Shown here in pieces: positions 1 to 64,000 of a stretch of 64,000 bases of DNA. Position 1 is the stretch's first letter. Every line of letters starts with the position of its first letter. The position numbers and the translations under genes were made by a program. The notes beneath the pieces were generated by a model. That model worked only from the letters and a program-made list of their open reading frames with translations, searched no databases and had not been told where the DNA came from. Source of the stretch: Nereocystis luetkeana (lineage: Eukaryota; Sar; Phaeophyceae; Laminariales; Laminariaceae); contig JARUPZ010000018.1 in assembly GCA_031213475.1 (NCBI GenBank), forward strand, positions 4,030,733 through 4,094,732. Reading direction: 5' to 3'.

Positions 1-480
1 ACAACAAAAGCCTTTTACTGTGATAACAGTACCTTGAAAATTGAAAGTTATTCATACATACATGTGCGTTGTGGTTTACAAGAAAAGCCTGTTACCATGC
101 CTTGACTACTGTTTTTTATTCATGATATGGCGTGTTACACAAGAAAGCATTGTTTCCATAACCTGAAATTTGAAACCTCATATCATACCCTGGTACACCT
201 TATACTCAGGAAGGACTATTCCGTTTTACAAGAATGTATTTTTTCCCTCACCCTGAAAATCGAACTTGGCAAAAAAAAATGTGTTTGTTCACGAGAAAGC
301 CTTCTTTTCCATACCCGGAAAATCGAGTTTCGTTTCAAACCAAGAGGTGGGTTTTACGAGAACAGCTATGTACGTACCTATCTTTTTACCTGTGTACCCT
401 GAAAATGGGCCACAAAATACAAAACACGCGTGCGTTTCATACGAGCGCTGTTCGTGATAAGGCTGTGTTTTACGAGGAAA
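1..480. repeat. Degenerate tandem repeat
   Basis: The stretch repeats a loose unit of roughly 50-60 bp built on 'ttacaagaaagcct', 'ccataccctgaaaa' and 'tcgaa', seen about seven times with heavy divergence. Short open frames here change frame between units and show no conserved protein, so I read it as non-coding satellite-like DNA. Its left boundary lies outside the window. Confidence 0.5.
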
Positions 481-1110
481 AAAAAAAAACATTGCCCGGG
501 CAGCAACATCGCTACAACTACGAACGAGTACGAAGTCCTCTGCTCCTCAGCTAATATATCTGTAACGCGAAGGGTGTTCAATTCTCGCACAGAAAGGGGT
601 GCGTGCGATCGTTATTTCAGCCGTCGGTTTTTTTTTCCGGGAACAACGGGAAGGTTACCGGTAAAGGAAAAAAATATTAGGGATCGGGAACCCTGGTATG
701 ATAATAACCTGCAGTTTGTTGTTGTTGAGAGAATAAGGCGTTATGGTTCATAATCTTTGGCTGGGTACGTATCTGCAGTACGTAGTCACTTCGACAGCAG
801 CAGGCATTGTTTGGTTGATCGCGCTTGTGGGAGTACCAAGTGGATACCGCACGGAACGGTGCTGGTAAACTGGTGGAACACGCCAACAGACAGGGCCCGT
901 GGCTCGCACCTGGACAGCGGTCGTTCGCTGGGCCAGGGATTCGCGAATTCTGGAACAGATATTTCGTGAGTTCTGATTCAGCATCGGAAGCGGAGCGGAG
1001 GTGGAGGGCTTCATACGTGGCACAGGCGCCGATAAAAAAACGAAAACAACGAAAGTTGTTCTCGGACTGATCTGAACTGCAGAGAGAGAGAGAGGAGCCC
1101 CCCGAAAATA
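481..1110. other. No gene recognised
   Basis: Unique-looking sequence. The open frames between 677 and 1207 have no recognisable domain, no matching splice sites and no similarity to the transporter exons to the right. It probably lies within an intron or beyond an exon of the AEC transporter gene, which is transcribed leftward through here, but I found no further transporter exon. Confidence 0.4.
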
Positions 1111-1418
1111 TAACTATGTTCGACTTTTTCATTATCACTCTGTCCCTATGTAAGGATTGGTTGCATTCTGTCCCCGAATATAATGACCATTTTATAATTA
1201 CATTCAATATAAACGGTCACTATATTCGGAGACAGAGCGGTATTAATGGCACGACTATAATTACTCATTACCGTTTAAAAAGAAAAAAGTAGAACGATCG
1301 TTTGTATACTAGTATTCACTACAAACGGTCATTATATACGGACAGAGTGTTATTGATAGCACGGTTGTTTGCTCACGACCGATTTAAAGAGAAAACAAAC
1401 GTGCACGGATCGTTTGTA

Positions 1419-1528
1419 TACTACGGGGGACCATAGTAATAGACCTATGGTACACACAAAAGCTCATATATTTACCTATTTTCACTCACAATATTTGGTC
1501 CTGTTTACTATGGTCCCCCGTAATAGTA
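1419..1528 (+). mobile_element. M1 MITE copy 1 (hairpin element)
   Basis: About 110 bp. The left end reads tactacgggggaccatag and the right end tatggtcccccgtaatagta, giving terminal inverted repeats. The interior carries an AT-rich segment. There is no coding capacity. It is inserted at the junction between two satellite units, and its orientation is opposite to that of copy 2. It is non-autonomous and I saw no matching transposase in the window. Confidence 0.8.
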
Positions 1529-1649
1529 TCCATTCACTACAAGCGGTCATTACAAACTCGAGGACAAAGTTGATTGTGATAGCACGTTTATTAACTTACG
1601 ATCGATTTGAAGAGAAAAAAAACGTATGAGGATCGTTTGTACCCTGGTA

Positions 1650-1762
1650 TACTATTACGGGGGGCTATAGTAAATAGGACCAAATATTGCTCGTAAAAAT
1701 AGGTGAACATATAGTTTTTTGTGTAACGTGGGTCCTATTTACTATGGTCCCCCGTACTATTA
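1650..1762 (-). mobile_element. M1 MITE copy 2 (hairpin element)
   Basis: The left end is tactattacggggggctatag and the right end tatggtcccccgtactatta. The internal strand-specific segment (accaaatattgctcgtaaa) is the reverse complement of that in copy 1, so the two copies lie in opposite orientation. It sits at the homologous position of the next satellite unit, just after a TACCCTGGTA motif. Confidence 0.8.
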
Positions 1763-2161
1763 ATACTATCTAACACAAACGGTCATTATATACTCAGGGA
1801 CAGCGTGGTATATTAATATCACAATTATTTACCGATTACCGTTCACAAGAGAAAACGAGCCTTAAAAAAACGATGACACCCCTTTGCGAACCCAACGCTC
1901 TCCGCGGAACAAAGAAAAGTAAAGAGGCGTTTCACTATAAATACTTGAAAAAATATTCAATACTAATCCCAACTTAGCTTTTTTTCTCGTGGCGAGCCGG
2001 CTGACCTCTGGTCTTTTAACCTCCTGCTACTGCTGTGCTGTACTCTGTGGCCTTGAACCGGATGGTTCTTGAATGGATGCACCATGCACCACTGCCGTAC
2101 GAGTATATCTCCAAATGCAACGACTTCTGTTTCAATAGCAGCCTGCACACCGGACGGTACA

Positions 2162-2245
2162 TTTAGTACTGCAGTCCCGTTTTTGGGAACACTCCACTCG
2201 AAGTCCAAGTAGTTTGTCCCCACGACGGGACCGCAGTCCTAAAAG
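2162..2245. mobile_element. M2 MITE copy 1 (piggyBac-like hairpin)
   Basis: Terminal inverted repeats: gtactgcagtcccgtttttg on the left, acgggaccgcagtcctaaaa on the right. The interior contains caagtagtttgtccc. The left TTAACCC end is lost. Confidence 0.75.
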
Positions 2246-3659: not shown

Positions 3660-3780
3660 CCTACTGTCCCGGGGAACCGACCGTAGTAAATAGGACCTGC
3701 GGCCCACACAAAAACCTACATATTTACCTATTTTTACCAACAACATTTGGTCCTATTTACTATGGTCCCCCGTAATAGTA
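3660..3780 (+). mobile_element. M1 MITE copy 3
   Basis: The right end tatggtcccccgtaatagta is intact. The left end is diverged (ctactgtcccggggaaccga), so one TIR is decayed. The interior matches copy 1 (acatatttacctatttttac). Confidence 0.75.
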
Positions 3781-5479: not shown

Positions 5480-5595
5480 ACTAGTATTACGGGGGACCAT
5501 AGTACAAAGGACCAAATATTGTTATTAAAGATAGCGAAATACATGGGGTTTCGTACGTACCGTAGGTCCTATTTACTATAGTCCCCCGAAATAGT
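5480..5595 (-). mobile_element. M1 MITE copy 4
   Basis: Left end ctagtattacgggggaccat, right end atagtcccccgaaatagt. The interior has accaaatattgttattaa, matching copy 2 orientation. GGAA occurs immediately outside both ends, but the target duplication is not certain. Confidence 0.75.
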
Positions 5596-7559: not shown

Positions 7560-9644
7560 CCTAGTAAACAGGAATGGGAGTGAAGGAACAACAACAACAA
7601 CAACAACAACAACAACCGCAATGGCGGCGGCAAACGTAAGTGGTAGTAGTAGTAGTTGTAGAGGCAGTACTGGTATCCTAAACAAATAGTTGCCGTAGAC
7701 TTCTACGAGCAAAATAACAAAAACATACGCAAAGAGCAGCAGCAGCATAAATCATGGGAACGTGTTAAGTGTATTTATCGCCTGTCTGTTATCATGTCTG
7801 AACAACGACAGCAGTAGCGGCGGTAGACAACTGTCTCAGTGGGAAGGAAACGCAGGCTGTAAACAACAACGACAACTGTTCGATCAAAAAAAGTTGGTTA
7901 TAGTGTGCAAAAATACAACAACGGCAGCAACAGCGCATATACAAATGGTAGTACGCGTACTATACCCCTGTCTCGGTGTGAGCTCCTATCAAGCAAAACA
8001 AAATGGCCAAACTGTTTCGGTTATAGTGTGCAAAACAAAATCTCGAAAAATGTACCTGGTATGTATTTGTGTCTTGTATTTAGTGCGGAAGGTCGACAAC
8101 ATGCGGGAACAGCAACAACGCCAACAACAACAAAGACAACAGCTGCAGCAGCAGCGGCGGCAGACACTGACTCAAAGTTGCCTACAACAGCAACAACGCG
8201 AACGACGACTGCGTACACAACAAAATCAGCATTAGAGACGATAGGCGCGCGGGGTTACAGCAGCAGGAAAAGGAGCAGCAGCAGCAGCAGCAGCAATGGG
8301 CTGCGCCACCAAGTCGTTTTCTCGCGTGCGGGAACAGCAACAACGCCAACAACAACGGGATAAACAACAGCAGCAGCGGCGGTAGACACCTACTACAGTA
8401 AAACGGCGAGTACATAAACAACAACTGCAGCATCAGGGGCGGTAGACGCGCGGGATTACAGTAGCAGGGAAAAGAGCAGCAGCAGCAGCAGTAGTGGGCT
8501 GCGCCACCAAGTCGTGTCTCGTATCACAAATAAAAATGGCAAGTGTGGGAAAAAATCAACAACAGCAGCCGCGGGAACAGCAACAACGCCAACAACAGCA
8601 ACAGAAACAATAACGCAGCAGCAGCGGTAGACACTGTTGCGGAAACGAACGCAGGCTGTAAACAACAACGGCAGTAGCAGCGGCAGCAACAGCACAAAAG
8701 CAAATGGCAGTAGGCGCAGTAGCGCATAAACAAATGGCATGATGGAAATTAGTACGTTTTTAGTCTTGGATTCAGTGCTAAAGGTCGACTACGTGCGGGA
8801 ACAGCAACAACACCGCCACCAACAGCATACCAGGTAAACAACAGTAGCAACAGCGAAGGTAGACATCTGCCTCGGCGTGGAAAGGAATGCAGGCTGTACA
8901 GAACAACGGATGCAGCAGCGGCAGCAGCAGCGCATACGCGTACTATACCCATATCTCGGTGTGAGCTCGTATAAAAGAACACAATAGCAAAAACATCTTG
9001 GTTGTAGGTTCAGTGCTGGAGGTCGACAACGTGCGGGAACAGCAACAACGTCAACAACAGTATACCAGGTGAACAACAGTAGCAACAGCAAAGGTAGACA
9101 CCTGTCTCGGTGTGGAAAGGAACGCAGGCTGTACAGAACAACCGAGGCGGCAGCGGCAGCGGCAGCGCATCCGCGTACTATACCCATATTTCGGTGTGAG
9201 CTCGTATACAAAAAACAATAGCAAATAAATCTTGGTTGTAGATTCAGTGCTGGAGGTCGACAACGTGCGGGAAGAGCAACAACGTCAACAACAACAGCAT
9301 AAACAACAGCAGCAGCAGCGGCGGTAGACACTGACTCAAAGGTCCCTACAACAGCAACAACGCGAACGACGACTACATAAACCAACCTGAAACGAGAAAA
9401 GCAGCATCAGGGACGGTAGGTGCGCGGGGTTACAACAGCAGGAAAAGGAGCAGGAGAAGCAGGAGCAGCAGCAAAGGGCTGCGTCACCAAGTCGTGTTCT
9501 CGTATTAATAATACAAACCAAAATGGTAAGTAGGGTGGAAAAAATTCAACAACAGCAGCCGCGGCGGTAGACATAGGCGACAAACAACAACAGCAGCCGC
9601 GGCGGTAGACATAGAGAGCAAACAACAACAACAACAACAACAGC

Positions 9645-11699: not shown

Positions 11700-12175
11700 A
11701 AGGCTAAAACTGTTGGGGGCGCTGCTGTGTGCTCTGAGAGAATTGCAGATTGGCCTCTTTGGCACCCCCCAGATAGCGACCTACCAGGTAAACAACAACT
11801 ACTTTGGTGTTGCGGGGCCGCCAACTAGCAGTAGAAGGGGTAGGCAGGATCATGCTGCGCCCGCCCCGTGCCGTGCGACCCCCTTCCGTTATAACTCGGA
11901 CACCAGTTACAGAATATCGTCCCCTCAAAATCACGCTGTGTGCGTTTTTGCTGTGTGGTTCGTCAATCAATATCATCAGCTTTCCCTTCAAGATGGCTAT
12001 GAGATCGGGGTCGGCGGCGAGCGGGCCACTTTGTACGCTCGAACAACCGCTAACGGCCCTCGTGCTCGAGAATTTACTGGAGGGTGCGGTCACGGTCACA
12101 ACTGAGTGCCGGGGCCTTGCTCTCAAATGGCTGTTCATGTTGGCGGAACCATTTGCGTGTGGATACGAGCACACA
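11700..12175. other. Unique region open on both strands, unassigned
   Basis: A plus-strand frame (11804 onward) and a minus-strand frame both stay open for over 300 bp across a non-repetitive, GC-balanced segment. On the minus strand it contains LIAILKGKLMILIDEP; on the plus strand a possible donor follows ATYQ at 11787 (cctaccag|gtaaac). The transporter reading frame needs no exon here, as exons 1 and 2 join directly. It could be an alternative exon or an unrelated fragment; I do not recognise it. Confidence 0.3.
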
Positions 12176-13149: not shown

Positions 13150-13489
13150 CGACAGCGCCTGCACATCACCACGAAGTCAACAAATATGTTAGCCTGCACA
13201 CGGGCGCCCGGAAAAAAAAGATGTCAACCGTCACATTTTTTTTTTTCGCTAGACAGGGGGGGGGAGTTATTATTTAATACCTGGTACCAGGTAGAACCGA
13301 GTGCAACAAATGAAGACATGAAGAAAAAAAAACTTATTTCATCGTGTGATAACAACTGCCAGGTACTGTTGTAACGGTTTTCCATTCCGACCTCTGGGGG
13401 TGTTGTGCGTCGTTTTCTCTTTTTCACGGACACCCCTGGCCTGCCACTCATATATATGTCAAAATCAAATGCTGCCTGCACACTTCGAG
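13150..13489. other. Probable 5' flank of the transporter gene
   Basis: It contains a perfect 16-bp palindrome TACCTGGTACCAGGTA at 13279 (two fused TACCWGGTA motifs) and homopolymer runs. No TATA-like or initiator sequence can be assigned with confidence. Confidence 0.35.
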
Positions 13490-15981: not shown

Positions 15982-16469
15982 CGGTTATATATACATATAT
16001 CGTAAATACGACGTCAGGGGCAGAAACAAGCGTTCTTGTACAATCGGGAACACAAGACGATTACCCCCCCCCCCCTTCACGATCGCCGCATAAGGCTGCT
16101 GATCTGTAGATACAATTATCGTGTATTAATAGTAGCACACATCGCGGGGCGGGGATGTGGGTTTTCATAACGGGGATGAAACACTAATGTCCCCGGTCGT
16201 AGTAACCGTGGGTGTATCATACCTGGTATATGGTATGCCGTCGAGGGCATATATAACCCTTACTGAAAAGCGGGGACAAAACACAAACAACCCCGGTCAC
16301 AATCGCCGCTGGAAATTGCTGCCCTGTGGGGTATGAGTATCGCGTGATATGCATATCAGAGGCAGTTTTTTCGGCGGGGGTGAATGACAAGCTACGAGAC
16401 AATAACGTACAATCACCACCGGGAGGTAATGTACGTAAAAAGGCTCGTGTATGACGAGCCTTCGACAGG

Positions 16470-24660: not shown

Positions 24661-25305
24661 TATTATCTACAGGAATATGGCCCGACCGCCGTGGGGGCGG
24701 GAGGGCCTTTTATTCCCTAGTATATATATAGCTCATGCTGACAAGTGGGAGCCGTATAGTCTGCACGATGATCTCCTACTGCTGTGGCACCTGTTTACTG
24801 GCTTGGATCTGCTGTACTACATGCCGATCCTGCTCAACCTCTCACGACAGCGGGCGATAGAGAGAACTAGATGATCTAGATGATCAGATGACCTAGATGA
24901 TCTAGAAGTTCAGGATGTTTCTGTCCAGGATAGCAGTATTTTGAGTTTTTTTTTTCTCAAAATCAGTACCTGGTATTTCGGTGGAGGCAGGGAGCTCCTG
25001 TACTACATATAATCCAGAAAGTATTCTCTTCGCATGAAGAGTTTGTGCTACGACCAAGACCCCACCCATCCACCCACCACACAAGGCTCACCTTCTACCG
25101 GCCGCCGCTGTGTGTGGTATCTCCACCCCCACCCCCCCTCCCATAAAAGCTTCCGTAGTTCTGGTGAATGATATGAGAGCGACCAGTCCAACCAGGCCCA
25201 CCATCATCCCTCCCCTCCCCCCTCCCCTATCCCGTCTCCCCCCTCCTCCTCGAACTCTTTCTTTCCCCTCGTCCCTCCTATTACCAGCTCTTCCTTGTTG
25301 CTGTT
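24661..25305. other. No gene recognised
   Basis: It contains a short tagatgatc repeat at 24870-24905 and C/T-rich sequence at 25120-25275. No exon. Confidence 0.3.
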
Positions 25306-27161: not shown

Positions 27162-27335
27162 TATTTTTTTTGCATATGGATAACAGCGTCTATAAATCGA
27201 TTCATTTTTCTGATGTGGCCGCTTCCAGAGACAGCAATGGGAGTACCATGTAACTGCCTCGCGGGTGCCTTACCACATACCAGGTACGCACTATTAACAG
27301 GGATTTACATACAATCATCCCCCTTGTGCAGAGTT
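27162..27335 (+). mobile_element. Family A element, right half
   Basis: Resumes with tgcatatggataacagcgt, ccagagacagcaatgggagt and aactgcctcgcgggtgcctt, and breaks off after gagttaaggtt. A CCAGGTA micro-insertion is present at 27281. Confidence 0.75.
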
Positions 27336-28004: not shown

Positions 28005-28039
28005 AAAGGTATCTGGAAGTAGTTCCATACATGAGTACA

Positions 28040-30345: not shown

Positions 30346-30349
30346 CGAA

Positions 30350-31014: not shown

Positions 31015-31199
31015 GTTGTACGTACGTATCGGTAAATTGTTGCCCTGGTCTATGTGTCTGTTTTCCTCACACCAGGTACGCAACAGACAATCACAGATAG
31101 ATCCCATAGTTCCAACGCTGCCGCCCACACGCCGTGCGTGTGCGACACACCCATATGCGCAGTATTGCTGTGGCTTGTTGTGTTTGTCGGAGCCTGCCG

Positions 31200-33370: not shown

Positions 33371-33787
33371 ACCAGGTATTACTTAATAGTATACCTGGTA
33401 AATAGTATACCGCCGTACCAGGTAGATCCACGAATAAGAAGAAACAATGTTTTTCTTTTTCGCTTTCGATTTGTTTTCTTTGTTTTTGTTTTTTTTCTTT
33501 GTTTCCTTTCGTTTCTCTATTTCATAGAATGTGTATGTCGTGCCTGTCGTATCCAGTATCATGACATGTCATTGCATTGCCCACTGCTGTGCTTACTGCG
33601 TACGTGGCAACGTAGCTAGCAGTATCTCTGTGGCGTAGCTTTGTGACCACAGAACTTGTATCTCTTCCACGATTGAAGAATCGGCACGGACACTGGTTGT
33701 GCTGGATGCCGACGGGTAGAAAGAACGGTTTAATGTGAAGAACACACACACGAATCAGAAAGAAACATTACAAGTATATACATATTC
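33371..33787. other. Three TACCWGGTA motifs, no gene
   Basis: Motifs at 33371, 33390 and 33417 lie within 50 bp, followed by a T/C-rich run (33430-33520). No exon. Confidence 0.4.
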
Positions 33788-34399: not shown

Positions 34400-34744
34400 A
34401 TTGACGAGAAAAAGTTACGATTGTAGCAACAGCCCCTTCGGTGATTGGGGATGGTGTAAGTCGGTGTCCGGCTTACAGCAGTGCTTGCAGTCGTACGGCA
34501 CTCGGAGCAACATGTTCCTACCTCCTCCCCCGTATATGCTGCTGGGTGCTCACGCTGCTTCTACTCTAGACGGTTGATACGAGTAACGCCAGAGTTATCC
34601 TTGGTTTGGTCGATATCTCGGGGACCCAATATCGTACCTGGTACGAGGCTTTCTTCTTGGCGGGACCATACTGCTGTCTGTACGTGGTACATTGCTAATG
34701 CAGTTATAATAAACGATCCCTTCGTAAAATCTGCTGTAGTGTGG
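34400..34744. other. No gene recognised
   Basis: Contains one TACCTGGTA (34637). Open frames are short and start in MITE sequence. Confidence 0.3.
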
Positions 34745-37172: not shown

Positions 37173-38600
37173 TGCTTTTAATTAATTGAATATTAATCCC
37201 GGGGGCGAAGCCCCCGAAAATTCTTGGAAACCTTTTGTGCTGTATGTAACTGGGACCGTACGGAATAAACGGAAATGGACAGGACTCTGCGTTCGAGGAT
37301 ACATCCGCTCGGCGCTTCGATATATCACCTTCGTTGCTGACTGCGACTGTAGAGTGTTTTCACTGTTACCGGTAGCCGTCGCTGTCCGTGCAGCTGGCGC
37401 TCTGCTGTTCACAAGAAGACTTGAGCTCTTTCTTCCCTCGTCGACTCGCATCGAAGTTATGGAAGGCTTTGTATCATGCAGAGGGGGGACGGGTCTCTAC
37501 CGTCCACTTTGTTCAGTGTTATATCGTCATTCTTCAGGCGTAGACGGAGGAGACGGTGTGAGGCCCCCCACCCCCTGTCCGGAGGGTCGAAGTTGGATAA
37601 TTCGTAATTCGACTTGAGACTTGCGGTTTGAGGTATAGAAAAAAAAAATCACCCGCCCCTCGCGGAAGAGAATAATATACGGGATGAAGGGAAAAAAGTT
37701 ATCGGTACAGAGGCACATCAGCAGTACGTACATACCAGGTACTTACTACTGCTGTCGCCATGCCATAGGCATATTATAGACCTCATCTGACCCCTGACCA
37801 CTACTGACTACCAGGTACTTCTGACTGACGCCTGATACATACCTGGTAGCAACTACTAATAATGCTGACTTCTGAAAAAAGGTAGAGAAGTTTGGCTCGT
37901 GTGGAGAGCGATGCTAAAGTGGGCATACCACTACTAACAGTTAACTGCTGTTGTTGTTGTTATTGGTTTTTCACCTGTTTTTAGAGGCCGGGCTACTAAC
38001 TTACTATTCGACACTACTACGAGTTGGTTGTGAGGCACTACTACTGTTGTGTGTGTACTGCACCATTATGTCCCTAACCTATACAAGTACGCCTTACGAG
38101 TGTCGGTAGGTACTTGCTTAACCCTTTACCATCAGCCCCACAGACTAATATCAGCTGCTGCAAGTAAGTAGCGGTATGACGGTACGAAAGACCCCAACCC
38201 AATCAACCAATCAATGTATACCGTCCTCAATGACTGACAGCTAGCTACTTCTGCTGCCGTGACAGCTACGGGGTCGGTCTCGAGGCTAAAACCTCCTGTT
38301 ACGGTAGCATTGCCCTGGAAAGCCTGTGAAAAGGCCATCCATCCATGGAGTCCACCCGGAACGGCACCCGCGGGCCACGGCACAAAACCCAGCCAAACCA
38401 TGCCGAGGACCAGCGAAGAGGGAGCGCGCAGGCCGCAGGCCCGGACAAGGTAGATGGTCCCGTCGTCCACGGGGATTAGTCGGCTAGATCCACTGCGGCC
38501 GTGCTCAGCGGCCGGTTGTGGCGGGCGGGACAGAGACGGGGTCGCGTGTTTTGCCGCTGTCTGCCACACGCGTTGTTTTATTTTGATTGCCCTGCCCGTC
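37173..38600. other. No gene recognised
   Basis: A 22-bp core fragment of SINE1 (tcttccctcgtcgactcgca) is present at 37431-37450. The rest is unique with several TACCWGGTA motifs (37731, 37811, 37844). No exon. Confidence 0.35.
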
Positions 38601-38605
38601 CCCCC

Positions 38606-39000
38606 CGGAGGGAGTTGATGCACAGATGTGCCCGTGTGCCAAATCAATACCTGGTAGAGAATAGTACTCACACAATAATAGGAGAATGTGAGTTGTGCAA
38701 GGAGGCACGGGACGTCTTAGAAGAGGAGATGATAGAAATAGACGAATGTGACATGGGGGGATATGGTGCACTAGAAAGCAGCGAGAAAACGATCGTTATC
38801 CTAGGAGGTAGACGGTGGCCACAGGCGGCGAAACAGGAAGGGGATAAGACTAGCAAAAAGTTTCGATGTATAGTATGGAAACAAAACGTAATGAGCGCCC
38901 AACGTCGAAGGTGTCTCTATTAGGAGTAGGATCGGTGCCCCGTCTCGAGAGGGATGCGTGGTCAATGGTCAAACGACCAAGGCAAGCAACAAATGAGGAC
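38606..39000 (+). pseudogene. LINE (non-LTR retrotransposon) C-terminal fragment
   Basis: The frame encodes a C-x-C...H-x4-C zinc-knuckle-like segment (VDAQMCPCAKSI, then STHTIIGECELCKEARDVLE) followed by EMIEIDECDMGGYGALESSE and RRWPQAAKQEGDKTSKKF. The same protein end is encoded at 51112-50540 on the other strand. This arrangement is that of the extreme C-terminus of a LINE ORF2 protein. The frame is broken at 38646 by a 7-bp CCTGGTA insertion. Upstream reverse transcriptase sequence is absent (5'-truncated, as usual for LINEs). Confidence 0.65.
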
Positions 39001-40634: not shown

Positions 40635-41075
40635 TCACACCCTGTACAACTACTTTAGTTGTCAGTTGTCAGGCAGACAACTACTCTTTGAAAAAGCTGC
40701 GCAACTAGTTGTCCTGGGCACCTACTTTTGAATAAAGTTACGCAACTAGTTGTCCTGGACAACCACTTCATAATAAAGTTGCGCAACTAGTTGTCCTGGA
40801 CAACTCCTTTCGAACAAAGTTACGCAACTAGTTGTCCTGGACAACTGAACAACTCCTTTTGAAAAATGCTGCGCAACTAGTTGTTCTGGACAACTACTTT
40901 GCAAAAATGCTGCGCAACTTGTTGTCCTGCACAACTATTAATAGTTTTGAATAAAGTTACGCAACTAGTTGTTGAAACATGCTGCGCAACTACAGTAGTT
41001 GCTCTGGACAAATTACTTTTCAAAAATGCTGCGCACCTAGTTTTCCTAGACAACTACTGGGTGAACATGCTGTGT
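40635..41075. repeat. Minisatellite, ~43-bp unit with CAACTAGTTG palindrome
   Basis: About ten copies of tgcgcaactagttgtcctgg / acaactacttttgaataaag. One copy has TACAGTA in place of TA (40988) and one has TATTAATA (40936). Confidence 0.85.
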
Positions 41076-43330: not shown

Positions 43331-45330
43331 GAGAGAGAGGGGGAGCGGTGAGTGGGGGGGGGGGTGGGCAGGTAGAAGAAGCAGGCAGAGACGAGACGAG
43401 TCCTTATGTAAAAGGGTCTGTTGAATTAATATCTGATGGAATGATGCGTGTCGAGGCTCTGTCTTCTGTGAGAAGAGATGCAGAGGTTGCACCGAAGTGT
43501 CTGTGAAGATCACTTGTGATGAAGAAAAGAGATTGTTTGGAAAGGTGCTTATGTGGCCAAATTTGGAAACGAAAGAGAATGATCGAGGTGGGCGATGCCA
43601 TCACCTGATCACGAGACAATGCCCATGCTACGGGCAGGTGTATTCTACAGTAGCCCGTCAAGGTTCCCTGAACCGTTCCTAGCGATGTCCCTGCAACGTT
43701 CTATGTAGCGTACTCGTAAGGTTCTATGCAACGTTACCTGATAATTATGGTGGTAAGCTAGCTACCCTGCATTACGATCAGTATGATAGAGGTAAGTTGA
43801 ATACAGTGCGTTGGCAAGAAAGAACAAACTCAAGTCTCGCCGCATATCGTATTTCTCCGCATCTATCATAAGGTACCAGGTACTTAGTATGTTCGTGTAA
43901 AGTGACTGCACATCAACATAGATATGGATCTCAACGCCCATATTTCAATAATATCTGGTCGACGCAGGCTGGTGGGGGTGGGTTTTGGCGGGCGCTTTGA
44001 GGGGGCGGGGAAGGGGGGTAGCGGAGCTTTCAACAGGATAATACTAGCTCATTTCTTCAGTTGCACGCAGCATCCACCAAGTAGAACGCGACTCCTTTCG
44101 GTTGCATGTTGCCTAACAGAGATCGGGCGGGGGGGGCGGGGGAGGGAGGGTGAGTGTGGAATTGGGGAGGGGTGCACTGGAGGTTGGGCTCAACTTGCGA
44201 GGAAAGGGGCAAAGATGGACGACCAGGGGACGCTCCAAATACGCCTAAATATCATGGGAGACCGTTCGTTTTGGTCGCGTCAAGGCCTCTTTCGGCCTTA
44301 CTCATCGGTAGATTTAGTGCAGGTGGGGGGGCGGCCAGTCAAAGCGTCAACCCCCGGTCTCCTACGTAGCATCTTTTCGTTTCCCCTTGAGACCTGCACT
44401 CTGGTTGTAGGACCAAAACACTTGAAATTGCAGAAATATTCAGTTGTTGTACAGAAGCGCAGCAACATCTTACAGTGAAAAGGTTCGAGGAGTAAGCCGT
44501 CTTTTACTCTCAGATGTCCGCCGGGGGTGGTGGCAATGACCACGGAGGCATGTACATAGGGCGAGGAAAAGTTGTAGGATAATGAGTCCGTCGACTGGAT
44601 GGAGGTCGTGGCATATTAGCTTATTCTGGGGGCGCGTGTCGATGGTGTGAGGGGGTAATTATCGGGAAAACCGGGCAGGTGGGGAGGAGGGAGGCAGTCC
44701 TGACGAGACAGCGGCGGTGGCGGTTAGGTTTGCCGCGAGTGAGTTTGTGGGGCTGACAACTCCGCCGAGTAATGCGAGGATCAGATCGGCGGGTTAAACA
44801 AGGCATCGAGAGGCAGAGCGCGTGGAGATGAGATAGTCGGCAGAGGGTATAGTATGATGATATTGGCGACGGCGCGCGCTATGCTGACAGGGACGCCGGA
44901 GAGCACTCCAGCGTGTGGGGAGTGAGGTGAGGGTAAGGGCGTGAGGGGCATAAGGGTAGCAAGGGTGGCGGTGTGGTCGGGTTTTAGCGTTTTCTTACTA
45001 GTCGTGACGTTGCGGGCATCGGGCCTATTTTTTCTACTGTGTGTTGAGTCACTGCGTGGAACTATCTTACGTGGCAGGCATTGGCCGCCGAAAGAAAACA
45101 AAAATCGGCTTGTTGATTCGCTGCATGCGACTACCGCTGTACGCATCAGACATCAGCCGTCGAACAACAGAAAATCGGCTTGTGAAGGTTCAATACTTCG
45201 GGGGACAGGAGAAGAACGCACACGTGAAGCTCAAAATGTGTTTGTTCTTAGTCTTTCTAGTAATAGGCATAATGGTAATCCTTGCAGAAGAGAGGAGTTC
45301 AAGTACTAGCCAAAGATAGAGATGAGCATC
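43331..45330. other. No gene recognised
   Basis: Several open frames of 60-184 codons on both strands (for example 43924-44478 plus, 43661-43404 minus, 45041-45319 plus with a hydrophobic stretch CLFLVFLVIGIMVILA) lack family similarity or a consistent exon structure. Not annotated as genes. Confidence 0.3.
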
Positions 45331-45575: not shown

Positions 45576-46946
45576 TAACAGTAACTACTATTAATAGACA
45601 AATAACGCCCAGTGACGATAAGACAAGAAACTAGAGGCCTTACAGACAACCAGGGCAAAACGTTTTCTTCATTTTTAGAGACCCCGGTCGGCACTGGGAT
45701 ACACGTAGAGTCTAGCGACAAATGCCATTTAAGTTGCCAACCCCACTATTCGTTTCAACAGCAAACAAACAAGCAAGGGTACATAAACACTAAGACGCCC
45801 TCACGCGTAAATACACGGTGCAGTGCGCCGTCGGCTGGACTCTCGTGCGCGCATGAGACATGTCGACAGCGGGGCGCTCCTGCGATCAACCAACTACAGC
45901 TACCGACAACAAGAAAATAACGCCAGACACATATTCCACAAAAGCCTGAAAACTATTGTGAAAACCAGACTAACCTTCAGTTTCCCAGATTATGACACCG
46001 TTGCAAGCAAAACAATAGCAAGACGAGTCAGCTACTCACGGGCATCTCCTCTGACATCAGCAATCAGCTTCACTCGCAAGCAAAACGTGCGAAAATGTGC
46101 CCCGTCCCCTCCCCCCCCTCCCTTCCCCCCGCCGCAGGCATCACGACATGCCAACAACCCGTATACCCTGGTACATAATTTGGCCAACTCGAAGTTCCAC
46201 GGCACTGCTACGAGTGCTTGTACGAGTGTATCAAATACTGCTTGCTACGTACAGGTATATGTATATCAATAGAACACCTGGAAAAAAATGTAGGAAAACA
46301 AGCAAAAATACGAAAGGCAGACTGAGGTTTACGGGAAACAAGAACTTCGGGAATCATAATATTGAAAATGGTGGAGAATGCACCCGTTTCCAAACAAGAA
46401 ATCTACATTCTGGGTCGGTACTTCGGTTTGGTACCACAATAGGTGTATTTTACCATTGCTGAGTGTCGTTTATAAACGCGTTCCCGCGCCAACGCCAGCG
46501 AGAAAAAAAAAAAAACTGAAAAAATCCAGGAAACCACCACTCTCAGCGGACTACAGCAAGCATACGTGCTGTCTGGTTGTCCGTACAGAAGCAGCAGCAG
46601 TACAAGCTCAGCACGAGCAACGCTAGCCTAAGATGGGCGGCTTTGCTGCTGCTGCTGCTGCTGCTGCTGGGCCGGTGACGTACACCTGGTAGCACAGAAT
46701 ACGCTACTGCCGTTCAGTCTAAATACGTCCGTAAAACAACTTCAGCCCACTTTTTTTAGTTGATACCAGGTATGTACTAGTAAGTGGCAAGTGGGTGTAT
46801 CTTTCTAGCTATCGTCCTGCGGTAAAGCTGACAACGCCCTTCCTACAAAACGTGCGTACGTATACGTATACGTTTGTCTTTGTTTTTTTTTGGTGCGGCC
46901 CAAAGGGCGTCGGCACAACTTGTGGAGGGTACGTCCGGGGTATTCT
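45576..46946. other. No gene recognised
   Basis: Unique sequence; a (CTG)n run at 46645-46670 and TACCWGGTA motifs at 46687 and 46764. Confidence 0.3.
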
Positions 46947-47037: not shown

Positions 47038-47795
47038 CGGGATACTTTCACCGCCCCGCACCCCGAAGACTACGAAAAAAACACCCAACACCACGGAGGT
47101 GATAAAAATAATAGCGATTTCAAGAGTAACTACAAGATGTATGGAAGCACTCGGTCGATTGGGGGTCGCCGAAGCCTGACACTTCTGTGCCGGACGCACA
47201 GCAGCTGCAGTGACCAGCGGCGGCTGCAGCCGCAGCACCGGCGGCAGCAGTAGCAGCGAGTTTCCCAATTTACACCAAGGCGTTTCTCTCCATCGTGCGA
47301 TGCGGCACGCACGACAGCACTATTAATAGACAAAATCTAAGCCTTTTTAACATACGTACCTGGTATCGGTTGTATCCAACATTTTTTACCTACACTAGAC
47401 ATCGACGAAACAAATCGAGTACGGGTACCACCTATAAAACCACACATGGGTTTGTAGCCCCTTGTTAGGCTTATAGTACGACCTATCCACAAATAGCTTT
47501 GTAGCCCCTTGGCAGGCTCAGGCTCGTACTGGGGTGTAAGAAGCTGCAAATCACGAGCTATGACAGATGGTGGCTGGTTTCTCCTGCATAGCGTGGTGGT
47601 GGACCGGTGGGCGGGCGGGCGCACGATCGACCCCACTGCACAGTACCACTGACGCTTTCCACTTTAGCTTCAGCTGATCAAGGAATGAAGCCCGCACCCC
47701 ACATTTTTCGCGCAAAAATAATCTGCGATGAGGCAGGGATAAGGGACGCGGGGAAGGGGGGAAAGAGAGAGGTGGGGAAGGGAGCGGGGGGCGGG
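47038..47795. other. No gene recognised
   Basis: The minus strand at 47160-47060 contains a hydrophobic run (LVVTLEIAIIFITSVVLGVF) in an otherwise unsupported frame that continues into M2. Not called. Confidence 0.3.
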
Positions 47796-48660: not shown

Positions 48661-49469
48661 GGAAGAGAGACGCCGGACATCAGACGGACTGGTCGAACTG
48701 TCCAACCGTAGGAGGGAAACAGAGAAGACCCCCTCTACGGAACAGATCAACAGTAGGTCAGCACAGTACTGTGGCGCTCGTTATTTTTGCTCTTGATGTG
48801 TATTCGTGTCAACCTTCTGACGAGCGTCCCTTCCCAACAGATCTCAGGGCAAAGACCAATACTGCCAGGTGTTAACAGCTGATGTGTAGTGCTTTGTGGC
48901 GCTTTCGTCCTGGGTAAGCCTTGGTTCGTTCGTTGGTCGGAGGAAGGGTCTCGCAACATGAACACGCTGAACGCACTTTAAACTTCTCCCCACTGAAAAC
49001 AGACAGGTCAGCACACGGTTGAAACTGATGAACAAACCGAGACAACACCCCAAGTGAATAAAATCAGTCCGTCAATGCGTCGTGCCTGCAGCTGCGAAAA
49101 CCAAGGCCGATTACGTCGAAAGGCCACAATATTGCCACCACGAGTGCACACAGCGCTACTCACGTGCCAGGTCTGTACGTACCAGGTACGTACGACGTCA
49201 CAATCCCCGGCAATGAACACGACCGCGCCGCGGTTCCTCGGGCGAAGAATCATGTACTCGGATATTCCCTGGTTTCACTCCAAGGCTAGGCCGCCTCCGT
49301 CCTCTGGCAGAGAACGAAGGCTAAGTAAACTGCTCTACTAAATTTTGCCGCGAGCCGGGGCGGAGACGAAAAGTCGCGTCCCTCCCACCCACGAAAACTA
49401 CTTGTAGGCCCAAAACATGGCAGTCTAAAGCATTACACTAGTGGCGCTCTGCTGTTTTTTTCCCCTCCG
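48661..49469. other. No clear gene; candidate 3' end of the kinase gene
   Basis: Mostly unassigned. On the minus strand a good pyrimidine-rich acceptor (cgttctctgccag) at 49304 precedes AGG ACG GAG GCG GCC TAG, which could be a short terminal exon. Another frame nearby reads YMILRPRNRGAVVFIAGDCD up to a gtacgt donor at 49192. Neither can be confirmed. Confidence 0.3.
49286..49303 (-). CDS. Candidate terminal exon of the protein kinase
   Basis: The acceptor ctctgccag, then five codons (RTEAA) and a stop, phase 0 to match the phase-0 donor of the exon at 50113-50292. Only the splice signal and frame support it. Confidence 0.2.
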   Translation of the reverse strand, partial: RTEAA

Positions 49470-53640: not shown

Positions 53641-54426
53641 CACACCCGGGGGTATATTGTTTGAGTTGGTTTTGGGCTGTACGTTGAATACCACACCCCG
53701 ATCGAACGTACGCCTGAAAATGTATCAAATAGTCACTTTTTCAGTCGGACAAGGGCTCTGAGGTCTCTGGTACCTGATAGCATACCACCCGAAGAATATC
53801 TTAATCCGCATAGGTCTCCCCCGCAGCTTGAAGGTTTCTGCTCTGACGCACATCGCTGAATAGCGAATACGATGCCAAGACTGTCGTCGGAACACAGTAA
53901 AATAGAAGAAGCGCCTACGCAGTGGCCTGGTGCAGTTAAGAGTTTGATCAACGAGGCGTCTGCCACGCTCGTCAATCCACCACTTATTTTAATATGGAAC
54001 GCAAAAACACGCACAAGGCACGCAGAGCAGAGCAGAGCAGGACCTTTCCCCTTTCCCCCCTGTTCTTGTTTTCCGTGATACTGTCTTGCGTCATTGCCGT
54101 GCGTGCGTTACCCCAGCTAACGCTGAAGCCCGCCTACTGCGGGCTAATTGTGCTGTGCATGCCCCCTGCTGTCAGCTTATGGTGCAAAACGCCAACCTGC
54201 TTGGGTTGGTCGTAGCGGGCACCAACCCCGGAGTAAAATTGTTTGGGCTAGTCGGAGCGGCCACCTGGGACAAAAATATCACCCTTTGTGTGTCTACATA
54301 TATCCCACGAAGCTTGCATATATTAGTTCCGACAAAACCTTCGATCTTACTGCTGTCGTTTTTTAATTATAGCATATACCGTGTATGACATACCTGGTAT
54401 ATACCAGGTGTACATTAATAACTCAC
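53641..54426. other. Kinase intron, unassigned; perfect TACCWGGTA palindrome near the exon B donor
   Basis: tacctggtatataccaggt (54391-54409) lies 17 bp into the intron after exon B. A minus-strand frame at 54014-53733 (93 codons, HIKISGGLTSVADASLIKLL) is protein-like but unplaced. Confidence 0.35.
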
Positions 54427-55705: not shown

Positions 55706-56555
55706 CTTGTGCGGGACGTCGGTGTCAAGGTCGGCGAGGGGACTACACCCGGGGGTTTGTAGTTGTAGCTGTATTGCTGTATTGCTGTATAGCTGTAACT
55801 GTAGCTGTACACCTGCAGCATCGTTTCATATTGCATACCTCTTGGTCGATTTTTTTCCATTCATTCATGCTTAAATATGTGAGCTTGGGTCGATTGCTCG
55901 ATACTTTGGCCGACCCAACCCAGTCCGGCCCGACCCGGCCCGACCCTACTCAACCTAACCTGAAGCCTAAACCCTTACAGCAACCCATCGTGAACTACGT
56001 TTTTTTGTCGCGCGTGACATGTGCCTCTTTTTGGTGTTTGTGTATGTTTACAATACGTCGTAGAGCTGGCTGTCATCCCGGTAAATAACATGCCCCGCGT
56101 GGGGTTTGTTTGGTTTCGTTTTCCAACTTACTTGCACACTATTAAGAGACTTCTTGAGCTTTTTCGTGATATTATGGCAACGAGCAAATACGAGTTCATC
56201 ATCATCATCAACAACAACAGCAACAGGTAAATACCTGGTACTACTGTAGAGGTTTCCGCAGCGGGAATCGGCGCGTTTTGCGCCGAATTCGACCCAAACA
56301 AACGAGGAGACAACAGAACCGGAAGGGACTGGAAAAGGAGAGTTCCCGAAATGACGACAGCCACGGAAGCAATAGTGGGAGGAGTGCGGGTTCTCTCTAT
56401 ATATTGTCGGTATGCGCGAGGCCAAAACACACCGGCGTTATGACGAGCACCGGCTGTAGTCAGGTATGAGCGTGTAGCAGCACGAGAGTTGTCCGTACGT
56501 GTTCCTGCCTGGGGGCGTGTCGCACATCTATATGCATCTCCCTGAACCTTTTTAC
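55706..56555. other. Kinase intron, no gene; cgaccc-rich patch
   Basis: 55905-55975 has cgaccc/cggccc words (cgacccggcccgaccct) resembling the subterminal arrays of the hAT-like element. Nothing else supportable. Confidence 0.35.
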
Positions 56556-57260: not shown

Positions 57261-58319
57261 CTGAACGAGGTAGGTGCAACCATTCCCGATCAAGATCAGC
57301 TCGGTACACGCTCTACCTCAACGAAGGTTTATTCTAACTGGTCGTTGTTTTGGCCGATCAACAGCGATGTTTTCTTGGTGCTTGCCCGTGGAGGTTGACC
57401 AGCTACGTTCTACGGGTTGTTGTGTTGTTATTGCTCCGCCGACATCGACGACTGACTACGAGTACCAAGAATGCTGTTTTGCTGAAATGATGTCACACAC
57501 TGATGAATTTACATATATGACCAAGTACTATTGACGTGTATGGTACATGACTGTATGTACCCTTTCCTCGATATTGTGCTCCATGCTACTACTGAGTATT
57601 GGCTACTACGGTAAATTGATTTTCCAGGCTGCTTCACGCACCTATCTGGCATAGGCAACTTTGTTCCCGACTAGCGACTCGGTAGGCTACTGGCGGCTGT
57701 TGTAACATGTTATGTACAGTAGTATGTGCCTACATCAGCACGACCCCTCGATGGAGGTGACGAAGTGAATCGAGGCGTGTCACGGTAAGGGTACCATCAA
57801 ACGTATATGGGCTCCTCACTGACGCGTCCTACGACATGGGTATACGTATGATGATGATGACGATGATGTGCTCACGATAGCTCGATTCCCTGACACCCTG
57901 CCTGTGGTCACGACGCAGGCTGAAGCAAAAAAATCGCATCTCGACGGGAGAAACACAAGGAAAATACGAAAAAAAGCGCACGGTGGCAGGACCAGCACGC
58001 AAGGGAACGGCATTAACGAGCTGTGTGTACACCACCCCGTATCACTTGCGACAAAACAGTACTACAGCAGTAGGAGCATACCCTTGGTATTATATGTACA
58101 TCCGAAAAAATGTATGCGAGTAGCCCATTTTGGCCAACATTTCAGATCAATGGGGCCCCTGTGTGGTTGGAATACCGTTGGAGTGGTACCTGGTATAGCG
58201 TACGGTAATTAGTTAAATCGTACCTTCAGAGGCCATCCGATTTTTCATCGGGGTTGTACTTTGTATAATATTTTCCCCGGGGTCAAAGATTAGAGCGAAG
58301 TACGAGCAAAAAGCTCATT
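57261..58319. other. Kinase intron, no gene recognised
   Basis: Short overlapping open frames only; TACCTGGTA at 58188. Confidence 0.3.
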
Positions 58320-60054: not shown

Positions 60055-60074
60055 CTTTTCGTTGTTGATGTCGA

Positions 60075-60315: not shown

Positions 60316-61205
60316 AGCAGGTTCCATACCACGCGGTCGCAGGGAAAGCGAGGGAAGATAATATTATGGACCACGGAGTATTCAGAGACGAGACGCGACA
60401 TGGCGTAGAGTGCATCGGACCGGCTTAGTCCGCATGACGCGGGGATGGCATACAGCGCCGCAAGAAGGGAGGTTGTTGAATTTAATCGTACTACAGTCTG
60501 AGATATGTAGCGCGTACTATTAATAGCAGTTATCTACAGACACTAAGGACGGTTTGTCTCTCCCGCACTGGAAAATAAGACATAGTAGGATATATCGCAG
60601 CACCGAACCGCACCGTAGGATTTACAATGTATGAAAACCGCCCCGAACCGCGCCGCAAGCTTTTCGGTTTCTTGAAACCGCACCAAATTGGACCGTAGCG
60701 TTTTCGATTTCTGAAAAAGAACCCAGCAAGAAACGAGATCCAACGATCACACAGCATACAAAATAAGAATTTTGACTCAACGAAACCCTCGATTTAAAAA
60801 GATGAACCAATCATACTGCTGCCCATATATATACCAGGTACAGCATACGAAATGGTTTTCGATGAAATCTCCGATCTCACAGTCGACATTTTCTAAGACA
60901 CCGGTACGTCTCAGACGAAAAGACAAAAAAACAAAGGTCACTACTATTGTAATAATTTAACACCAAATGTGTAAATATTTTAATTAATTTACACACTTTT
61001 CGTCATTTCTACTCGTCGTATGACCGCTAGGTACTGCATAGCCACTACGGTACTGCAAAGGTATACTGTACACACGTAGGTACTACACACAGTACTCGTG
61101 GTAAGGATAAAACCCAGGCGAGTAAGTACTAACACTAAGAACACTTTTTAAGTATTGCACCAATACACAGCAGTGTACTTGAAAAAACAAAATAGTGCGT
61201 ACCAG
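60316..61205. other. No gene; ccgaaccgcaccg-motif patch
   Basis: 60585-60715 contains gaaccgcaccgtag and ttgaaaccgcaccaaattgg in both orientations, another subterminal-repeat-like patch. No kinase N-terminal exon was found here. Confidence 0.35.
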
Positions 61206-61207
61206 GT

Positions 61208-61490
61208 ATACATTGCCCCGTTGGGCACGTGGTACCCTCGATGCTGGAGTTCGAATCCCAGGTCTGTCGAACTTCAAGGCGCAATTCAATGAGAGTCGAC
61301 GAGGGAAGACAGGGCTGAAGTCTTCGCAATAAAAATGCCTTCCAAGGCGAGAACCGTAGTGGGGAGGAGGGAGAACGGTCTGCTTTGTGACACCAGAGCT
61401 GAGTTACGACTATATAGGAAGAAGAGAGAAGAGAAGGGCGAAGACAAAAAAATGGGACGGAAAAAAACAAAATAAAATAAAACAAGGACA
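61208..61490 (+). mobile_element. SINE1 copy 3, diverged subfamily
   Basis: tRNA-like head attgccccgttgggcacgtg ... ctggagttcgaatcccaggt (box B), then gagtcgacgagggaagacag, gtgacaccagagctgagtta and the A-rich tail gggaaaaaaacaaaataaaa-like. The body aligns with copies 1 and 2 in reverse orientation but is clearly older. Confidence 0.7.
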
Positions 61491-61659: not shown

Positions 61660-62280
61660 ATGTAACACTCCCTGGGTTCCACAGAAGTCACATGTTGTTC
61701 CACTCAATGCGAGACATAAATACTTGAAGAGTATACACCAAACTCGTAGTACGCGCGATCGATGTATCACCCACAGCTTGGAAAGATGAGTTTCGACGAA
61801 TTCTTCGATCTCACAGCCGTATGTTATTTTTTGTATATCAAGCGCTCAGAGACGGCCCCACGTGGTGGCTTAAGTGACTCGATAATTTTGGGTACTTGAT
61901 TGCGGCCCATGTCTGTGGTGCCCGTTTGATCACGTTAATTCCTCGGGATCTTTGACCTTCCCGGATATGACCTCACCATACCCATTGAAACTGCCGGAGT
62001 CACTAAGGATATCGAATGGGACAAAAAAACAGCGTTTGGGGGTTAGGAGGGTTTGTTGAATGGCCTGCTAGAGCAATGACAGTGTGGCTGTACCGATAAC
62101 AGTAAGACCGTAAAGACGCACTGCCTGAGTTCCACAGGGGTCACATGTTGTTCCACTCCATGCGGGAGATATATACCCTTCAACAGTTTACACAAAGCCC
62201 GTAGTACGCGCGATCGAAGTATCACACACAGCTTGCAAAGATGAGTTTCGGCGAAATTTTCAAACTCACCACTTACTGTG
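61660..62280 (+). repeat. Direct repeat, ~450-bp spacing (two copies of ~165 bp)
   Basis: 61668-61825 and 62118-62278 share gttccacag.ggtcacatgt, tgttccactc, gtagtacgcgcgatcga and aaagatgagtttcg.cgaa. A short third match (gatctcacagtcgacattt) lies at 60872-60890. Confidence 0.7.
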
Positions 62281-62553
62281 ATTTTAAGTAACGTCCGGGG
62301 AGTTCCTTTGTCCGGTTCTCAGAAGTTAGCAGATGGGGGAAGCTTTCATGACACTTCTCCCTGTCTTCTTGGAAATATCACACCTCCTCTAGGTTGCTTT
62401 CCACCGCCTCGTGACAACCCTGGGCTCCTCATACTGACGAAGCACCCCCGCGCACGAAACGATATATATTATGCCTGTCGCCTTGAAAAAAACGCCTAAT
62501 CCACGACTTCGATTTACTCATAATTTACAGCCCCTATTAGAAGGCATGCTGAT
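62281..62553. other. No gene recognised
   Basis: No repeat or exon supported. Confidence 0.3.
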
Positions 62554-62554
62554 C

Positions 62555-62794
62555 TGGGGGGGGGGGTACTCGATACTCGATCTCATGTATGGCCGTAGTC
62601 GTATCACCATAGACCCTCGCATCCTTACAATGCCGGGACGGAACATGTCGGGTTTTCACCGACCAGACAGACATTGCTTGCACCAAGCGCGAAGCGCCGT
62701 GAGGTGTCCGGCGAGTCACATATAGGGTGAACTGCATCCTACCAAGAACCGTTCGAGAGGCGGGTCTTGCATATGGATGGCAGCTTCAATGAGT
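62555..62794 (+). mobile_element. Family A element, truncated
   Basis: G-run, atggccgtagtcgtatcacc, cgggttttcaccgacc, gcgaagcgccgtgaggtgtc and catatggatggcagcttcaa, then directly the next copy. Confidence 0.8.
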
Positions 62795-63312
62795 GTGTGT
62801 GGGGGTATTCGATATCATGCATGGCCGTAGTCGTATGACCATAGACCCTCGCATCCCTGCAACGCCGGAACGGAGCCCGTCGGGTTTTCACAAACTAGAC
62901 AGGCATTGCTTGCACCAAGCACGAAGCGCCGTGAGGTGTCTGGTGAGTCGCATGAAGGGTGAGCTGCACCCTGCTAAGAACTGCTTTTTAGGCGTATTTT
63001 CTTGCATATGGATGCCAGCGTCAACGAACTGATTCACTTTCTGGTGTGGCCACTTCCAGAGACAGCAATGGGCTTACTATGTCACTGCCTCGTGGGTGCC
63101 TTACCGTACACACCCTACGTGACACGACCATTCTCCTTGTGCGGAGTTAAGGTTCTCCCCGCACAAAAAATGATCCAACTCGATCGCCAGCCGTGGTGAC
63201 CGACGAAAAAAGAAAAAAGAAAAAAACACAAAAAACGGTACCTTGGTTGTCTAGCGCCCGCAGTGAGAAGCATGTTTACAGCTTCGTCGCCAACCGACGC
63301 CAACCCAACTCA
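62795..63312 (+). mobile_element. Family A element, near full length
   Basis: The most complete copy without a G-run: ggccgtagtcgtatgaccat, ggtgtctggtgagtcgcatg, ccagagacagcaatgggctt, gccttaccgtacacacccta, tccttgtgcggagttaaggt, aacggtaccttggttgtcta and the end caaccgacgccaacccaact. It is the reference for consensus length (~520-560 bp). Confidence 0.85.
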
Positions 63313-63563
63313 TATATACCAGGTATATAATATGGGGGGGGGGCTGGGGAGGATAAGCTATTTACGTTGGGTCAGTTTTAAAGTGGTTAGGGATGGTGAC
63401 GCCCAATCAACACGGAAAGCTCACCCAGTTGACTACAGAGAGCACACCGGTCAATGAGAGGCCTAATGTAGATAATATACCCCGGGGTTTTAAGAGTGTA
63501 GTTTAACCAACGTGCCCCGCCTATTCCAAGAGCTACGTATTGCTCACTACGGAAAATAGCAAC
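63313..63563. other. No gene recognised
   Basis: A TACCAGGTA motif at 63316 directly follows the family A tail. Confidence 0.35.
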
Positions 63564-63677
63564 CATTATTACGGGGGACCAAATTAAATAGGACCTCCGG
63601 CACGGACAAAAACTAATATATTAAACTATTTTTACTAACAATATATGGTCCTACTTACTGTGGTCCTCCGCAATAGC
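63564..63677 (+). mobile_element. M1 MITE copy 5
   Basis: Left attattacgggggacc, right ggtcctccgcaatag; interior atattaaactatttttac as in copies 1 and 3. Confidence 0.75.
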
Positions 63678-64000
63678 TATGCAACCGTGCCCATTGAGGC
63701 GTGCCACGGGGTGCCCGCTGTACACAATCCCGAGACGAAGGGCGGGTGTGGTAGGCTTGTGGCCGAAGCACGCCGGGTTGGGGTCACCTGAGCGCTTTCA
63801 GGGGCCTGTGGCAATTGCATACAAACGTTCATGTCTGTATCACGCACCTTTGATGGTGAACACTCTGCTTGATGCCTTCCCGAACATCCGGCTGCATACA
63901 AAACTAATATATATACCAAGTATCAATATGTAAACAATAGGCTACATGTACTACTGCTGTATACGGATATCAGATACCAGGTATGTACGAAGGTATTTTT
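63678..64000. other. No gene recognised
   Basis: Overlapping short frames on both strands; TACCAGGTA at 63975. Confidence 0.3.

Follow-up and report, generated by a model that had tools for sequence, protein, structure and literature searches.

The window considered here is a 64,000-nucleotide stretch of the genome of the brown alga Nereocystis luetkeana (assembly GCA_031213475.1, contig JARUPZ010000018.1, positions 4,030,733 to 4,094,732), and the question it raises is what process could have placed the nine-base palindrome TACCWGGTA (W being A or T) at so many of its sites. An initial annotation, made from the letters of the window, counted about 27 such words and read them as micro-insertions at TA, possibly footprints of transposon excision. 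Exact matches number 28, against 0.65 expected from an order-2 and 0.52 from an order-3 Markov model, and the 17 coordinates listed in that annotation are all correct within 2 bases. The word is very probably the excision footprint, or scar, of a TA-inserting cut-and-paste DNA transposon that is Tc1/mariner/pogo-like and has an unusually long stagger of 4–5 nt.

Excess of TACCWGGTA and its gain at TA

The bare core ACCWGGT occurs 35 times in the window, and sequences with at most one mismatch to TACCWGGTA number 47, compared with a shuffle mean of 12.14 (sd 3.62) and a shuffle maximum of 22. Across the 465,085,209-bp assembly, TACCWGGTA was counted 182,395 times and its letters in reverse order, which served as the control, 1,744 times; this is an excess of about 100-fold, at odds with the possibility raised in the initial annotation that the word is no commoner genome-wide than base composition predicts. 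The flanks of 26 of the 28 window words are unlike those of other copies, and thus the words are not a single repeat that has been copied around.

Twenty 10-kb stretches taken at 1.0 Mb of contigs C1–C20 contain at least one TACCWGGTA in 18 cases, with a mean of 3.85 per stretch. Together with the window and five or six 3-kb loci (L001–L004, L007 and, initially, L008; the overlapping L005 and L006, and later L008, were left out), they constitute a sample of ~280 kb, which is biased very slightly toward the word because the 3-kb loci had been chosen for holding it. Among the nine-base odd palindromes of the sample that are centred on W, the TACC arm accounts for 112, the runner-up among the 256 arms for 27 and the median arm for 2; palindromes with TACC arms have W at the centre in 112 cases and S in 12. 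A and T are nearly equal at this base (16 A and 12 T in the window, 54 A and 62 T in the sample), as in an odd palindrome of the Sleeping Beauty type. The 336,045 bases read in all hold 130 TACCWGGTA. One-mismatch words in the sample are likewise in excess (123 against 58 expected), and a mean divergence of ~6–7% per base, estimated by hand, suggests that the scars are decaying and are not all recent.

Paralogs record how the word came to stand where it does. Each TA-N5-TA word was compared with paralogs that carry the stretch ungapped or that have exactly one TA in its place. Within the window, where 70 such words are spanned, an exact TA-empty paralog exists for 2 of 4 CCWGG words and for 0 of the 66 others. 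In the sample the corresponding counts are 4 of 12 and 1 of 234, with a hypergeometric chance of ~1.6e-5 (by hand), and the lone exact-empty word of another kind, TACCTCGTA, is one mismatch from TACCWGGTA. The four CCWGG cases lie at 8828 and 38648 and, outside the window, at L012:3808 and L026:7056, the last with 6 empty copies.

The initial annotation had pointed to repeat families in which a paralog lacks exactly the insertion, and the window words examined for this fared unequally. Two pass the strict test, namely the TACCAGGTA scar at 8828..8836, whose TA-empty paralog is at 9241-9337 and whose decayed tandem duplicate, TACCAGGTG, stands at 9063..9071 in a 235-bp repeat, and the TACCTGGTA scar at 38648..38656, with an exact TA-empty paralog at 50993-50808 on the minus strand. 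The TACCAGGTA scar at 27278..27286 has no exact-empty paralog under the strict test and only a near-exact one (41431-41584), which emerges if the flanks are searched without the insert; the scar is also absent from aligned relatives at 63049 and 39475. At 1640..1649 the scar is the variant TACCCTGGTA with an 8-bp insert, CCCTGGTA, facing empty TA in paralogs at 1357-1439, where the site adjoins a 3-base gap, and 1274-1314. For the TACCAGGTA word at 63317..63325 the paralog alignment is unclear.

A family of miniature inverted-repeat transposable elements (MITEs) of ~105 bp provides a second record. Among 18 aligned copies 60–200 bp long, 16 are without the word and 2 are filled at the same TA, one holding CCAGGTA and the other CCTGGTT; since these differ in centre base and belong, by eye, to different subgroups, two separate gains are likelier than one. 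Scar-free copies in the window lie at 1420..1526 and 1652..1759, both of the TTACGGGGGACC family, and at 3679..3778, 5485..5594 and 63567..63676. Paralog differences at 4 of the 12 words and the MITE alignment both display insertion at TA with duplication of the TA, and the TACCWGGTA words are thus insertions of CCWGGTA at TA, gained as a 7-bp unit rather than lost. The initial annotation had also envisaged the reverse, a word ancestral in the repeats and later deleted between its two TAs. TA...TA is indeed a short direct repeat, and slippage deletion would leave exactly one TA; however, the predominance of empty MITE copies, the differences between the two filled ones and the several empty copies of L026:7056 all speak for gain, and deletion would leave both the genome-wide excess and the flank consensus described below unexplained, which renders ancestral loss scarcely credible.

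Target site, proposed mechanism and variant words

A symmetric target palindrome, roughly TANTAYR-TA-YRTANTA, lies outside the word. On both sides the TA is followed outward by the consensus YRTNNTA, which amounts to a palindromic, A+T-leaning target preference centred on TA. At outward position 1, A is found in 13 of 224 flanks where 42 are expected, T occupies position 6 in 125 of 224 (56.9 expected) and A position 7 in 109 of 224 (59.5 expected); TA at positions 6–7 together is present in 76 of 224 word flanks, compared with 2,297 of 30,760 at all TAs. The consensus was first found on the window, and loci outside it (168 flanks) give chi2 values of 79.4 and 57.5; in the whole sample it persists after removal of TATATA flanks. 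The consensus score in the window is not raised round TACGAGTA, TACWGTA or TATTAATA, and round TACGTA the flank score is mildly raised (P 0.0036).

With every scar comes a further TA at a distance of 7 bp, which makes scars good new targets and hence gives rise to nested scars. Six nested words were seen against 1.6 expected, and 4 of the 27 spacings in the window are shorter than 50 bp, against 0.7 expected. The two nested words at 13278..13293 (TACCTGGTACCAGGTA) are interpreted as an earlier insertion one of whose TAs took up another. One cluster of three comprises TACCAGGTA at 33370..33378, TACCTGGTA at 33392..33400 and TACCAGGTA at 33416..33424, and another TACCAGGTA at 37733..37741 and 37809..37817 and TACCTGGTA at 37840..37848.

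A dense, dispersed 9-bp palindrome with a longer symmetric consensus around it could also be a functional site, such as a binding site, an origin or an insulator, kept or spread by selection. This explanation is very unlikely: paralogs differ by exactly CCWGGTA at TA, which a selected point mutation would not give, the one-mismatch excess is what neutral decay predicts, and another word, unrelated to this one, fits what a resident MITE would leave on excision, as detailed in the next section.

Excision of a transposon accommodates these features in the following scheme, in which we infer the transposon itself, the length of its overhang and the repair pathway. The transposase would prefer a TA inside the TANTAYR-TA-YRTANTA palindrome, and insertion would duplicate that TA. 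A staggered cut at excision would leave both flanks with a 3' overhang, CCAG(G), made up of the bases with which each transposon end begins. When the two overhangs anneal, either along CCAGG/CCAGG or just along the inner CAG, the single mismatch would be A opposite A at the centre; repair of this mismatch would thus give CCAGG or CCTGG about equally between the TAs, for a net remainder of 7 bp. Imperfect annealing would yield the rarer scars CCAGGG/CCCTGG and CCAGGGG.

The variant words bear on the sequence of the lost ends. Genome-wide, TACCAGGGTA occurs 11,422 times (5,725+5,697), with a control count of 409 (195+214), and TACCTGGGTA 1,578 times (780+798), with a control count of 362 (185+177); in the sample the two stand at 11 and 0. 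The 11 sample copies of TACCAGGGTA keep the target consensus in part, with Y at position 1 in 19 of 22 flanks and T at position 6 in 13 of 22. CCAG(G) overhangs joined by partial overlap give CCAGGG/CCCTGG and not CCTGGG, which makes A the likely base at position 3 of the end; the asymmetry suggests that the lost transposon ends began CCAG(G). Some TACCTGGGTA may have been made by mutation of very common words. In the window, the 6-nt variant scar TACCCTGGTA also stands at 186..195 and 46164..46173.

As for the overhang, a 5-nt CCAGG predicts CCAGGGG at the next step, while a 4-nt CCAG predicts CCASTGG, the products of the 4-nt model also including CCAGCTGG. The word with a CCAGGGG core, TACCAGGGGTA, occurs 918 times against a control of 74, and TACCASTGGTA 403 times against 148. 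The comparison, 12-fold over control for CCAGGGG and 2.7-fold for the 7-nt CCASTGG, leans somewhat toward a stagger of 5 nt over one of 4, and CCAGGGG could also arise by slippage in G runs. The same transposon mechanism with CCAG overhangs of 4 nt that pair through CAG/CTG, in effect a Sleeping Beauty/pogo end plus one C, is nevertheless a realistic possibility, a little short of an even chance. It would give the same main word and stay inside the published range of 2–4, a pogo-type element with CAG ends is present in the genome, and for TACCAGTA two exactly empty copies exist at L018:1414 and the excess is 2.1-fold (27 against 13.2); the modest count of CCASTGG is the evidence that tells against it.

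Control words, known transposons and the search for a parent

The dispersed TA-x-TA word TATTAATA, with a TTAA core, represents a second scar type and served as a control. It occurs 62 times in the sample against 5.9 expected, 49 times with independent flanks, and of 13 spanned words 5 have exact TA-empty paralogs, 14 empty copies being present for one of these; a window example with a TA-empty paralog lies at 40936..40943. Among other TA-N4-TA words, 16 of 264 have an exact-empty copy (13 rest on a single 6-bp-shorter copy in L017, two on L027, and one is TACCAGTA), and thus TTAA stands out less sharply than CCWGG. The flank consensus of TATTAATA is TA followed by GTA. The MITE family that starts TTACGGGGGACC beside a duplicated TA shares this preference, its 22 sampled ends having G in 14, T in 17 and A in 16 at positions 1–3. 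TTAA would result if TTA were left on one flank and TAA on the opposite one and the two paired through their TA; with its matching flank preference, TATTAATA fits the excision footprint of this visible TA-inserting MITE. Such a word, together with the palindromic target consensus and the asymmetric variant, lends support to the excision origin that the initial annotation had proposed for TACCWGGTA.

TACWGTA, counted 107 times in the sample against 46.5 expected, has flanks partly confounded by CAG/GTAG simple repeats, and an exact-empty paralog exists for 1 of 16 spanned words, the CWG-type control scar TACAGTA at 40991..40997, for which adjacent repeat units are TA-empty. It is plausibly the scar of a pogo-type element with CAG ends. 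One such element, at L041:3554-6161, is bounded by TA, has perfect 26-bp inverted repeats (CAGTGGGGGGCCCTATATAGTGCAGG) starting CAG and carries Pfam DDE_1 and HTH_Tnp_Tc5 in one frame; its end recurs in L039, and weaker look-alikes (19/26) occur in L013 and L023. A further TA-bounded stretch, of 1,912 bp at L037:1036-2951, has GCACCGGGGTGCGATAAAAAACAC-type ends (19/24 alike) round a DDE_1 match.

Among known systems, Sleeping Beauty footprints have a choice of A or T at the centre base, and the Tc1-like element Minos leaves a 4-nt scar, a core of more than 3 nt between TAs that is of the CGAG type and not self-annealing. According to the cited part of PMC8151067, Sleeping Beauty excision leaves CAG between TAs; the scar described here resembles it in the TA target, the 3' overhang that would come from the transposon end and the short core between TAs. 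It differs in having CCWGG (5 nt) in place of CWG (3) and a target with TA 7 bp away on each side instead of the ATATATAT given in the cited part of PMC7913693. Pogo-type footprints extend over 0–4 bp in the case of Passer, in the passage concerned of PMC9976928. The CCWGG scar shares the TA target with pogo/Fot1-type elements (DDE_1, Tc1/mariner superfamily), of which examples with CAG ends occur in this genome, whereas no pogo element with CCAG ends was found among the DNA read and the stagger would be 1–2 nt longer. TA duplication, a symmetric target consensus and exact TA-empty paralogs are common to it and the resident TTACGGGGGACC MITE with its word TATTAATA; the latter differs in its TTAA core, its TAC-TA-GTA target and the visibility of the element (22 ends in the sample), the CCWGG parent not being visible. 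Many Mariner-Tc1 MITEs are described in the brown alga Ectocarpus, in the cited part of PMC12477816. CCWGG does not occur in the 10 listed of 67 literature matches. Judged by these analogies, the footprint most likely works like the known Tc1/mariner/pogo ones with a longer core.

The search for the parent covered TA-flanked inverted repeats with any start or with a CC start, half-word pairs at most 150 bp apart, half-words ranked by flank score, post-TA sequences with a raised target-flank score, and transposase loci. Post-TA sequences with raised scores are mainly of the TATA type, followed by weaker ones including CCAGG. A flank score above 2 is reached by 20% of half-words, compared with 6% of all TAs and 38% of full words, and raised scores of half-words as a class are what decayed scars would show. 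None of these searches yielded a convincing parent. From zero parents in the sample, a hand estimate sets a rough upper bound of about 5,000 on its genomic copy number, if copies keep both ends. The genome transposase search returned 28 DDE_1 (PF03184) matches, none linked to the scar; PF13358 matched 0 of 30 candidates, and PF01359 gave no match, but no control genome matched it either.

Several candidates were set aside. Short half-word pairs have no end in common, one example being TA-CCTGG...CCAGG-TA (25 bp, L007). The candidate end CCTGGTTTATATT looks like a decayed scar followed by preferred A+T-rich target, and CCAGGTGTACA at 54402, which resembles a Mos1 end, equals TACCAGGTG plus target flank, again a decayed scar. 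As scars, TACGAGTA (36 independent copies against 12.9) and TACTCSGAGTA lack the target-flank signal.

A number of results weigh against a transposon excision footprint. The DNA transposon with CCWGG ends that the initial annotation expected did not turn up, as no element with CCAG or CCWGG ends beside TA is present in the window, the sample or five 8-kb transposase loci; because no parent was found, it is from the scars that we infer both the parent and the 5-nt stagger. Five nucleotides between TAs lie outside the 2–4 bp given for Tc1/mariner footprints in the cited part of PMC7913693. Of the 112 sample words, a crude flank test accepts no more than 76 as independent, and an order-7 model expects 101.5, drawing, as for any repeated word, on the word's own sub-words. 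Half-words in the window are near chance, with 7 TACCWGG lacking the TA and 11 CCWGGTA lacking the TA where ~8.7 of each are expected. The excess of short spacings is limited to less than 100 bp, with none below 500 bp (6 against 5.5) or below 1,000 bp. In the paralog test, 8 of 12 spanned words are without an exact TA-empty paralog, the alignment being gapped or unclear, 3 of 12 have a paralog carrying the word, and the 6-nt variant scores 0 of 1. Moreover, TACCTGGGTA stands at 4 times its control, which ends beginning CCAG do not predict.

The lack of a parent element in the DNA read would also suit a transposon-free process that makes 7-bp units, for instance biased repair at TA breaks. Such a process is quite unlikely, as the fixed CCWGG, the TA duplication and the palindromic target consensus look transposase-made and the MITE control behaves alike. 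Returning to excision by a transposon, one particular form of it, in which a TA-inserting element with an unusually long 5-nt self-annealing stagger was removed over and over throughout the genome, e.g., by programmed elimination in each life cycle, is unlikely, if less so. Were it true, removal would be efficient enough for scars to far outnumber surviving copies (130 against none found in 336 kb), and the element would survive mainly as an excision record.

In excision assays footprints are as a rule examined in small numbers, and here one genome offers ~180,000 copies of a single footprint. Even without the element, such numbers give statistical access to target choice, stagger, annealing and the outcome of repair. 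Much like a repair assay, the variant words suggest the first bases of the lost end, and a 5-nt self-annealing scar would extend the Tc1/mariner range of 2–4 bp. The abundance of scars beside unseen copies raises the question of how a transposon could hop so often yet leave so few copies. As a 7-bp insertion, a scar could shift a reading frame; its presence or absence can also be counted as a marker among strains and relatives, with the proviso that favoured targets can be hit twice.

Remaining words and other features of the window

Exact matches other than those already located comprise TACCTGGTA at 8053..8061, 16220..16228, 24967..24975, 34635..34643, 47357..47365, 56232..56240 and 58187..58195, and TACCAGGTA at 11782..11790, 29030..29038, 43874..43882, 46764..46772, 49180..49188, 60832..60840, 61200..61208 and 63975..63983. 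One more TACCTGGTA word, at 54391..54399, stands just outside a protein-kinase exon and is probably intronic (by eye). The exon, at 54418-54831 on the minus strand, matches Pfam Pkinase with an E of 1.4e-23 and has a donor-like GTGAGT beyond it (by eye); Pkinase is the only Pfam family above the cut-off among 30 window frames. Scans of the window for tRNA and Rfam families gave no match, and 52500-56000 was also empty at E 0.01. Within that interval, 53069-53625 holds a tandem repeat of 264 bp that includes a tRNA-like stretch (GGGGTTCGAATCTC) and has no Rfam match.

An inverted repeat at 28036-33364 has arms of ~450 bp that are 72% alike, are separated by ~4.4 kb and differ by numerous short indels; 0 of 6 inner frames tested have a Pfam match above the cut-off. 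At 20657-20666, TACCTGTGTA stands where a paralog (19970-20072, 97% identical) has TA, which marks a recent TA-flanked insertion of a different type, 8 bp long. Arrays at 21736-22685 and 28531-28761 are rich in TACTCSGAGTA and TACTGAGAGTA, near-palindromes between TAs that occur in a few clusters only. Finally, CGGGT/GACCC pentamer arrays occupy 25642-27130, and G runs are very frequent throughout the window.

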